Source: Streptomyces tendae
GTDB taxonomy: Bacteria > Actinomycetota > Actinomycetes > Streptomycetales > Streptomycetaceae
Assembly: GCF_008632955.1 (NCBI RefSeq)
Contig: NZ_CP043959.1
Coordinates: 6,758,001 to 6,822,000, forward strand
Direction: 5' to 3'
Length of the DNA stretch: 64,000 nt
Position 1 is the first letter of the stretch. Each line of letters starts with the position of its first letter. Positions 7,057 to 64,000 of the stretch are shown in pieces. Position numbers and translations under genes: made by a program. The notes under the pieces were generated by a model. The model saw only the letters and a list, made by a program, of their open reading frames with translations, was not told the DNA's origin and did not search any database.

Positions 7057-7097
7057 CGCATGTCGACATGTCACTACAGCGCGTTGCCGACATGTGA
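7057..7097 (+). promoter_or_regulatory. Repeated CGACATGT elements upstream of sigN
   Basis: CATGTCGACATG (7059-7070) is a perfect 12-bp palindrome, and CGACATGT occurs at 7064 and again at 7088, 24 bp apart. The elements lie 114-150 bp before the sigN start in the 246-bp sigF-sigN gap, so they could be an operator or part of the sigN promoter region. No binding protein can be named. Confidence 0.4.
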
Positions 7098-7210
7098 CAT
7101 TCTGCCGGAAGCGCGTTTGCCGGAGCCTCGGCGCCGGTATTCAGGTGAAGGCTGCGTTCCCCGGATCGGGAGCGTCCGCCGCGACCGTCCCGCGACCCAA
7201 AGGGGGTGGC

Positions 7211-8113
7211 ATGTCCGCAGAACAGGGCAGCTCGAAGGTGCTCACGCTCGCGGAGAGCGAGTCAGCTCCCCATGCTCTCGACGCACTCGGCCCCATCGAC
7301 GAGGGCCCGGCCCTCGCCGCTACACCCGCTCCGGACCTCCCGGACACGGCGGCCCTCGACACCCGCACCCTGTCCCGTTCCCTGTTCCTGCGGCTCGCCG
7401 TGCTCGACGAGGACAGCCCGGAGCGTGCCTACGTCCGGGACACGCTGATCGAACTCAACCTCCCGCTCGTGCGGTACGCGGCGGCACGCTTCCGCTCGCG
7501 CAACGAGCCGATGGAGGACATCGTCCAGGTCGGCACCATCGGCCTGATCAAGGCGATCGACCGCTTCGACTGCGAACGGGGCGTGGAGTTCCCGACGTTC
7601 GCGATGCCGACGGTGGTCGGTGAGATCAAGCGGTTCTTCCGTGACACGTCCTGGTCGGTGCGGGTGCCGCGCCGGCTGCAGGAGCTGCGGCTGGCGCTGA
7701 CCAAGGCCGGCGACGAGCTCTCCCAGAAGCTGGACCGCTCGCCGACGGTGAGCGAACTCGCCGTCGTCCTGGGCGTGTCCGAGGAGGACGTCGTCGACGG
7801 CCTCGCGGTGGGGAACGCGTACACGGCGTCCTCGCTGGACTCCCCCGCCCCGGAGGACGACGGCGGCGAGGGCTCGCTGGCGGACCGCCTCGGCTACGAG
7901 GACACGGCGCTGGAGGGCGTGGAGTACCGGGAGTCCCTGAAGCCGCTGCTGGCGAAGCTGCCGCCGCGTGAGCGGCAGATCATCATGCTGCGGTTCTTCG
8001 CGAACATGACGCAGTCGCAGATCGGCGAGGAGGTCGGCATCTCGCAGATGCACGTCTCGCGTCTGCTCACGCGGACGCTCGCGCAGCTGCGGGAAGGGCT
8101 CATCTCGGACTGA
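7211..8113 (+). CDS. sigN: RNA polymerase sigma factor SigN (SigB/F type)
   Basis: A 300-residue group 3 sigma factor very similar to the preceding SigF: identical core [28 protein letters not shown] and [13 protein letters not shown] segments, and the region 4 helix-turn-helix [21 protein letters not shown]. In S. coelicolor SigN acts in aerial development. The N-terminal 80 residues are an acidic/Pro/Ala extension unlike SigF's. The ATG at 7211 follows AAAGGGGGTGG; an upstream in-frame ATG at 7094 has no such site. A terminator follows, and its own promoter probably lies in the 246-bp gap after sigF. Confidence 0.93.
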
Positions 8114-8700: not shown

Positions 8701-8720
8701 TTATCCACAGCTGTGGATAA
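8701..8720. promoter_or_regulatory. Inverted pair of DnaA boxes
   Basis: TTATCCACAGCTGTGGATAA is a perfect 20-bp palindrome made of two consensus DnaA boxes (TTATCCACA and its complement) facing each other across GC. It is in a gene-free stretch. DnaA binding is established for this 9-mer; activity at this site is inferred. Confidence 0.6.
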
Positions 8721-62344: not shown

Positions 62345-63277
62345 ATGCCAGCGAGCTATGCGTATCTCGGCCCAGAGGGCACCTTCACCGAAGTCGCCCT
62401 GCGCACGCTTCCCGAGTCGGCCACGCGTGAGCTGGTCCCGTACGTGTCCGTGCAGTCCGCGCTCGACGCGGTGCGCGCCGGCGAGGCCGAGGCCGCGTTC
62501 GTCCCCATCGAGAACTCGGTGGAGGGCGGGATCACCACCACCCTCGACGAACTGGTCGCGGGCAGCCCTCTGATGATCTACCGCGAGGTGCTGCTGTCGA
62601 TCACCTTCGCGCTGCTCGTCCGCCCGGGCACCAAGCTGTCGGAGATCAAGACGGTGACCGCCCACCCGGCCGCCCAGCCCCAGGTGCGCAACTGGCTCAG
62701 GGCCCACCTCCCCGACGCCCTCTGGGAGTCGGCCGCCTCGAACGCGGACGGCGCGCGCCTGGTCCAGGAGGGCCGGTACGACGCCGCGTTCGCCGGTGAG
62801 TTCGCGGCGGCCCGGTACGGCCTCGAGCCGCTGGAGACGGGCATCCACGACGCGGAGAACGCCCAGACCCGCTTCGTGCTGGTGGGCCGCCCCGCCCGCC
62901 CGGCTGCGCCCACCGGCGCCGACAAGACCTCCGTGGTGCTGTGGCAGCGTGACGACCACCCCGGTGGGCTGCGCGATCTGCTGGGGGAGTTCGCCACCCG
63001 GGGCATCAACCTGATGCTGCTCCAGTCGCGGCCGACCGGTGCCGGCATCGGCAACTACTGCTTCTGCGTCGACGCCGAGGGGCACATCTCCGACCGGCGG
63101 ATGGCCGAGGCGCTGATGGGTCTGAAGCGCATCTGTCTGCAGGTGCGCTATCTCGGCTCGTACCCGAGGGCGGACGTACGGCCCGGTGAAGTGCGGCCGC
63201 CGTTCCCGGGGACGTCGGACGAGGAGTTCGTGGGCGCGGCCGACTGGGTGGCGCGCTGCCAGGACGGCCGGTTCTGA
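62345..63277 (+). CDS. pheA: Prephenate dehydratase
   Basis: A 310-residue monofunctional enzyme that turns prephenate into phenylpyruvate in phenylalanine synthesis. The catalytic domain has YLGPEGTFTEVAL, FVPIENSVEGG and the conserved NAQTRFVLVGRP (TRF motif). The ACT regulatory domain (~200-280) has GGLRDLLGEFATRGINLMLLQSRP, so phenylalanine feedback is expected. No chorismate mutase domain. ATG 62345 after TTAGGGTGAGGTC. Confidence 0.97.
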   Translation: MPASYAYLGPEGTFTEVALRTLPESATRELVPYVSVQSALDAVRAGEAEAAFVPIENSVEGGITTTLDELVAGSPLMIYREVLLSITFALLVRPGTKLSEIKTVTAHPAAQPQVRNWLRAHLPDALWESAASNADGARLVQEGRYDAAFAGEFAAARYGLEPLETGIHDAENAQTRFVLVGRPARPAAPTGADKTSVVLWQRDDHPGGLRDLLGEFATRGINLMLLQSRPTGAGIGNYCFCVDAEGHISDRRMAEALMGLKRICLQVRYLGSYPRADVRPGEVRPPFPGTSDEEFVGAADWVARCQDGRF

Positions 63278-63373: not shown

Positions 63374-63686
63374 TTATCCACAGAAGTTATCCACAGGTCC
63401 GCTTCTCGACCTGGGGACAAGTCGACACCCAGTTGCCCTTCGGTCGACAAATCGCCCTACAAGCCATGATCACGTTCATTCGCCCGCGGCTCACCCTTCG
63501 TCCACTCTTTTGCGGCGATCAACCCTATGGAGGGAGGTCTTTCCACTCGAAAGTGGCGGTAGAGGCAGTTTGTCCAGGGAATCCTTGCCCTCGGCCGGGC
63601 CTTTCGGAGTGATCAATTCCGGCGTCCACAGATCTTCCCCACAGCCTGTGGATAACTTTTCCGGCCGTGTGGACAACTGTGGACAG
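63374..63686. promoter_or_regulatory. DnaA-box cluster between pheA and serS
   Basis: In a 600-bp gene-free region: TTATCCACA at 63374 and 63387 (plus), GCGTCCACA at 63622 (plus), TGTGGATAA at 63647, TGTGGACAA at 63668 and TGTGGACAG at 63678 (all minus-strand boxes), and weaker TGGGGACAA at 63412. Two head-to-tail boxes on the left face three on the right across about 250 bp that also contain AT-richer sequence. The rest of 63278-63878 shows the serS promoter and no gene. Confidence 0.75.
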
Positions 63687-63864
63687 CCGGACTCCAAGTC
63701 CCGTTCCACACAAGGGTTTCAGGTCAACGCGATCCGCGGGGCCGACCCTTTCAAGCGATGACGTCCCCTTTATTGACCTTGAAGAACACAAGGGAGATTT
63801 CACCAGCAAAGGGACACGTGTCGTGGCGCCGCAATAGTCAGTCGTGAGCCGTCGTCCGGCACCG

Positions 63865-63870
63865 GTAGCC
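63865..63870 (+). promoter_or_regulatory. -10 hexamer of serS (probably leaderless)
   Basis: TAGCCT lies 8 bp before the GTG start of serS with no Shine-Dalgarno sequence between, so the transcript probably begins at or within a base or two of the start codon. Confidence 0.5.
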
Positions 63871-63878
63871 TTGACCGC

Positions 63879-64000
63879 GTGATTGACCTTCGCCTGCTCC
63901 GTGAGGACCCTGACCGTGTGCGCGCTTCGCAGCGCGCCCGTGGAGAGGACGTCGCGCTCGTCGACGCTCTCCTGTCCGCCGACGAACGGCGCAGGTCGTC
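63879..64000 (+). CDS. serS: Seryl-tRNA synthetase, N-terminal part
   Basis: Partial gene cut by the right window edge; 40 residues visible, [31 protein letters not shown], the start of the tRNA-binding coiled-coil arm of SerRS. It charges the serine tRNAs, three of which are encoded in this window. GTG 63879 is supported by the conserved xIDLxxLREDPD start and the -10 hexamer. Confidence 0.95.

Follow-up and report, generated by a model that had tools for sequence, protein, structure and literature searches.

How replication is restrained in the multigenomic hyphae of Streptomyces, and how it is coupled to development and to the production of antibiotics, is an open question. The gene-free interval between pheA and serS of Streptomyces tendae, which carries a dense array of DnaA boxes outside oriC, raises it in a concrete form: what does such an array do for the chromosome that bears it? 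We analysed the array within a stretch of 64,000 nucleotides of the S. tendae chromosome (hereafter the window), in the rest of that genome and in related genomes.

An array of strong DnaA boxes near the origin

The pheA-serS interval, from the pheA stop (63277) to the serS GTG (63879), spans 601 bp and contains no genes. Pfam identified the flanking products as prephenate dehydratase (pheA) and seryl-tRNA synthetase (serS). An earlier note on this DNA had described five good boxes and at least one weaker one, two facing three, in a gene-free ~310 bp, and all of them were recovered where it had placed them (Table 1). Taking TTRTCCACA as the exact box, the array comprises four exact boxes and two with one mismatch in 313 bp. 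The TAGCCT element upstream of serS marks a probable leaderless promoter, and the block GTCGACAAATC is a possible weak DnaA site.

Table 1. Features of the pheA-serS interval of S. tendae, in window coordinates
Feature	Position	Strand	Basis or conservation
pheA, prephenate dehydratase, flanking gene	62345..63277	+	ORF, Pfam
DnaA box 1, TTATCCACA	63374..63382	+	+ pair 12-13 bp apart in 78/80 intervals
DnaA box 2, TTATCCACA, 13 bp after box 1	63387..63395	+	+ pair 12-13 bp apart in 78/80 intervals
DnaA box 3, weak, TTGTCCCCA, 25 bp after box 2	63412..63420	-	TTGTCCCCA, TTATCCCCA or TTGTCCTCA there in 78/80
Conserved block AAGTCGACA, overlapping the end of box 3	63419..63427	.	exact in 78/80 intervals
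Conserved block GTCGACAAATC	63443..63453	.	exact in 68/80 intervals
Location of the ScbR2 site predicted for S. coelicolor serS	63488..63515	+	own match 19/28; site from Table 2 of PMC4595836 (consulted in part)
Conserved block TTTCCACTCGAAAGTGG with short inverted repeat	63540..63556	.	at most 1 mismatch in 50/80 intervals
Imperfect palindrome GGAGTGATCAATTCC, operator-like, 41 bp before box 4	63606..63620	.	at most 1 mismatch to GGANTGATCANTTCC in 66/80; offset 41 in 68/73 measured
DnaA box 4, TTATCCACA	63647..63655	-	TTATCCACA on - strand in 80/80 intervals
DnaA box, TTGTCCACA	63668..63676	-	missing or altered in most other intervals
DnaA box 5, CTGTCCACA, 31 bp after box 4	63678..63686	-	- box 28-33 bp past box 4 in 75/80
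TAGCCT, -10-like element just 5' of serS	63866..63871	+	conservation
serS start, flanking gene, continuing past the window end	63879..64000	+	ORF, Pfam

The array lies close to the origin. On the 6,900,068-bp contig C1 the DnaA domain is encoded at 988-1473, and the far end of C1 carries rnpA-yidD-yidC-jag-rsmG-parA-parB (names from reading the translations), indicating that its two ends join in the origin region. The array is located 78.4 kb from this junction, on the parAB side. Similar distances separate it from the dnaA domain in six other genomes (77.1, 79.5, 81.4, 82.9, 92.9 and 103.5 kb). The oriC of S. tendae has no exact box, and the boxes of the array are stronger than those of oriC. 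PF00308 (DnaA) was matched only once in the genome, which therefore has no Hda-type second copy, an absence that we assume to bear on RIDA.

The number of boxes is well beyond chance. Allowing at most one mismatch to TTWTCCACA, 12 boxes were found in the window, compared with a mean of 2.59 and a maximum of 7 in shuffles. First-order Markov resampling of the interval (2000 replicates) never produced more than three boxes with at most one mismatch, nor more than one exact box, against six and four observed. The whole genome contains 64 exact boxes (14 TTATCCACA and 50 TTGTCCACA) and these crowd the origin, 20 of them lying within 100 kb of the C1 ends where 1.74 are expected. The earlier note had proposed a genome-wide count of boxes, and this count singled out the array as one of only two 320-bp stretches with at least three exact boxes, the other being C1:21641-21841 (four in each). 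Within the 362 kb around the origin in which density was ranked with at most one mismatch, the densest 320-bp stretches were oriC (eight boxes, none exact), the pheA-serS array (six, four exact) and C1:21641 (five, four exact).

The second cluster (G000:C1:21641-21841; L091:1641-1841), on the opposite side of oriC, is made of four exact boxes plus CTGTCCACA. It is enclosed by the 3' ends of two genes, one for a rhomboid protease and the other crgA (both named from reading). This stretch was matched in 40 of 41 genomes of the genus, with three or four exact boxes in each of the 25 loci read. In S. tendae it has a same-strand pair of boxes 13 bp apart in common with the pheA-serS array. Since the surrounding genes are convergent, a promoter role for this cluster is unlikely. 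The presence of a second conserved cluster across oriC suggests a paired control system. Elsewhere in the window, at 8701-8720 and 3' of a sigma-factor-like gene (7094-8113), a pair of TTATCCACA boxes in head-to-head orientation makes up a perfect palindrome of 20 bp, TTATCCACAGCTGTGGATAA. Beyond serS, past the window, a perfect 7-bp tandem repeat of 13.6 copies lies between converging genes (L101:3970-4064).

Conservation of the boxes, the inner blocks and the spacer

Conservation between species, on which the earlier note had made its proposal depend, was assessed in 80 Streptomyces pheA-serS intervals, namely that of the window and 79 readable ones among 80 collected loci. The array was kept in 75-80 of the 80, depending on the feature (Table 1), with four exact boxes in 50 intervals, three in 28 and two in the remaining 2. 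One locus, L076, falls outside these counts as no serS start was found, yet it has the array. The exact two-part pattern TGGGGACAAGTCGAC, spacer 212-242, TGTGGATAAC was present in 251 of 392 genomes of the genus. A second pattern (TTATCCACAGG, spacer 220-250, CCTGTGGATAA) was found in 20 of 40 genomes of the same genus and, among 354 genomes from elsewhere in the class, in one (G382).

The array is also recognizable across the family. A DNA profile built on it matched 41 of 61 family genomes, representing 14 of 17 genera, at E ≤0.001; at E ≤1e-10 it matched 32 genomes from 10 genera, the remaining nine matches being weak or partial. Run on stretches of the S. tendae genome around the origin, the same profile gave a high score for the pheA-serS array only (265.7 bits, the next being 13.8). 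We then examined the DNA upstream of serS in 12 family genomes that gave no profile match or a weak one, and 1.5 kb of it in 18 genomes of other families. Eight of the 12 had boxes in an altered layout, which in three of them lay 1.1-2.1 kb from serS. The first 1.5 kb contained no box in G416 and G428 and a single weak box in G403, and one genome could not be judged. None of the 18 genomes of other families had as many as two boxes in this 1.5 kb. In the serS survey as a whole, G400, G101, G018 and G023 are weak negatives, as their serS matches are of low identity (35-46%). Two genomes of another genus (G852:C57:238309-238572 and G825:C100:234938-235199) carry facing boxes with a shared flank, apart from the serS-type match.

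Conservation was not confined to the boxes. Of the non-box columns inside the array, 42% were at least 90% conserved; in the flanks this share was 26% towards serS and 2% towards pheA. The operator-like block GGAnTGATCAnTTCC, whose conservation and offset from box 4 are given in Table 1, was matched with fewer than three mismatches in just two of 525 windows of 560 bp from the S. tendae genome, the array being included once. No AdpA site with at most one mismatch was found in the array, the single Rfam match was far below the cut-off, and three RNA folds were no better than those of shuffles.

A predicted receptor site also falls among these blocks. In S. coelicolor, serS (SCO3961) is a gel-shift-confirmed target of the antibiotic receptor ScbR2 according to work by ChIP-seq and gel shift (PMC4595836, parts consulted), and the ScbR2 site at serS is predicted from a motif, not footprinted. 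The published 28-mer matched at 27 of 28 positions in three of the collected intervals (L011, L050 and L059) and at 20 or more in 65 of the 80 Streptomyces intervals, whereas 396 control windows reached 18 at most. In S. tendae the match was 19/28, near this chance maximum, and among 22 more distant loci all but one gave 14-18/28. As the 28-mer is fixed 101 bp after box 2 (60 of the 65 intervals), the predicted ScbR2 site sits in the middle of the array. In the passages available, a paper covering both ScbR2 and DnaA makes no connection between the two, and neither it nor one naming D78 together with DnaA and Streptomyces concerns the pheA-serS array.

The spacer between the two groups of boxes is constrained in length. 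Among 150 places listed out of the matches in 251 genomes, and over a search range of 252-282 bp, the distance from box 2 to box 4 was 256-261 (121 places), 268-271 (18) or 277-281 (11), and nothing else; five lengths were corrected by hand where box 2 was TTTTCCACA or TTGTCCACA. Exceptional lengths were 274, shared by two genomes of one genus, and 287, in a single genome. Across roughly the same set of 80 genomes, changes of 4-31 bp occurred 5 times in the array spacer (260 bp), 21 times between box 4 and serS (~234 bp) and 34 times between pheA and the gene before it (~88 bp).

Helical phasing of the box 2-box 4 spacer was considered and not retained. The pheA tree comprised 141 genomes, with no pheA match in L187, L213 and L215. 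Ten of 15 changes of at least 4 bp fell near one or two turns, which is suggestive only (p 0.12 against a uniform distribution). Nor was phasing special to this spacer: box 4-serS was phased no less strongly (R 0.51) and pheA-box 2 weakly (R 0.36), while two other intergenic spacers were unphased (R 0.20 and 0.29). Between box 4 and serS, the large length changes (40 of 4-31 bp) were near one or two helical turns with p 0.0006 against a uniform 4-21. In the serS leader (63687-63878), a length difference of ~11 bp recurs 3' of a conserved ATTGAC, as if promoter elements were helically phased.

Probable titration of DnaA and alternative roles

We consider that the array is probably an oriC-proximal site that sequesters DnaA in the manner of datA, and most likely the orthologue of the D78 cluster of S. 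coelicolor. The earlier note had suggested a titration site, and sequence comparison supports this suggestion: the boxes are strong, lie outside oriC and near the origin, are conserved, come without an unwinding motif, and are kept where serS has become separated from them. DnaA would bind the two inward-facing groups cooperatively and would thereby be removed from oriC, whose boxes are all weaker, delaying re-initiation. The array would draw DnaA off oriC because its locus is duplicated shortly after initiation. Less firmly, the fixed geometry, together with the conserved blocks that separate the two groups, hints at a defined looped nucleoprotein complex rather than a set of independent sites.

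Some published work bears on such a role. Papers citing the S. coelicolor DnaA-box cluster (near oriC in one wording) state, in the passages available, that it represses untimely initiation. In actinomycetes, domain I of DnaA forms dimers, and contacts made by this domain have been proposed to link distant groups of boxes in Streptomyces oriC (PMC13270200, consulted in part); contacts of this kind would suit two facing groups ~260 bp apart. In E. coli, DnaA in vivo favours pairs of boxes 2-3 bp apart, according to the portion of PMC11317965 consulted, whereas the gap in the array pair is 4 bp.

Some observations count against titration. Conservation extends to the serS-side flank, and part of it may therefore serve serS. 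A site working by titration alone would have no need of conserved blocks among its boxes. Finally, some family members show no array, the 1.5 kb upstream of serS having no box in G416 and G428 and one weak box in G403.

A tentative alternative is that the array, instead of being a passive sink, is a DnaA platform under signal control, in which proteins (including ScbR2 in S. coelicolor), bound at the fixed inner sites, set the load of DnaA. The two groups of boxes would then act together through a loop, because the spacer is length-constrained, mostly near 260, 270 or 280 bp. If this were true, antibiotic or hormone signals would reach replication initiation. The same constraint on the spacer, together with the conserved non-box blocks, suggests a defined complex and so could also fit a DDAH-like inactivating or DARS-like reactivating site, which would alter the nucleotide state of DnaA and not simply bind the protein; sequence cannot tell such a site from titration, and we regard it as unlikely.

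Control of serS transcription by DnaA bound at the array is improbable. The array is upstream of serS in all 80 intervals, and the serS-side flank is conserved and changes in length as if phased with a promoter. However, the nearest box ends ~190 bp before the serS start, and in three genomes (G413, G402 and G401) a whole gene in the opposite orientation lies between the array and serS, encoding a PAP2/diacylglycerol kinase in one and a polysaccharide deacetylase in two, while the boxes stay beside pheA. These intervening genes weaken the case for serS control. In addition, serS changed 0.947-fold in the S. coelicolor scbR2 mutant despite ScbR2 binding (PMC4595836, parts consulted), a result that speaks to ScbR2 and not to DnaA. 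As to a cryptic or secondary replication origin, the many boxes and the lower G+C content (0.57 compared with 0.62 at oriC, with 30-bp minima of 0.40 and 0.47) would fit one, but the array boxes exceed the oriC boxes in strength and a box followed by a DnaA-trio run occurs in 0 of 80 intervals, whereas in the S. tendae oriC TACTACTAC directly follows the last box; an origin is therefore highly improbable.

Comparison with known DnaA-box clusters

The sequestering site proposed here is probably the same site as the cluster described in S. coelicolor. In that species the inner block lies 5' of serS (SCO3961), as the 28-mer match reveals, and dnaA is SCO3879, 82 gene numbers away. We take D78 to be the name of a cosmid, presumably one that carries serS, and the S. 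coelicolor cluster called D78 to be the pheA-serS array locus. Like the array, D78 belongs to Streptomyces and consists of strong boxes close to oriC (Smulczyk-Krawczyszyn et al. 2006, J Bacteriol 188:6184, as cited by others). The parts of the literature available to us make no mention of the inner blocks, the family-wide range or the overlap with ScbR2, some of which the 2006 paper may contain. Relative to the literature consulted, the family-wide architecture, the fixed non-DnaA blocks and the ScbR2 overlap are thus new, the DnaA-box cluster itself being already known. With a conserved array, a fixed geometry and a predicted receptor site inside it, a link between replication and antibiotic production becomes directly testable in S. 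coelicolor.

Clusters with a role like the one proposed here are known outside the genus. In Bacillus subtilis, clusters near oriC are reported to repress untimely initiation, in a lineage different from that of the array host (Okumura et al. 2012, as cited by others). E. coli datA is, like the array, a cluster of boxes outside oriC, and the sources consulted in part state that datA lowers initiation; the array differs from it in being built of two groups that face each other over ~260 bp.
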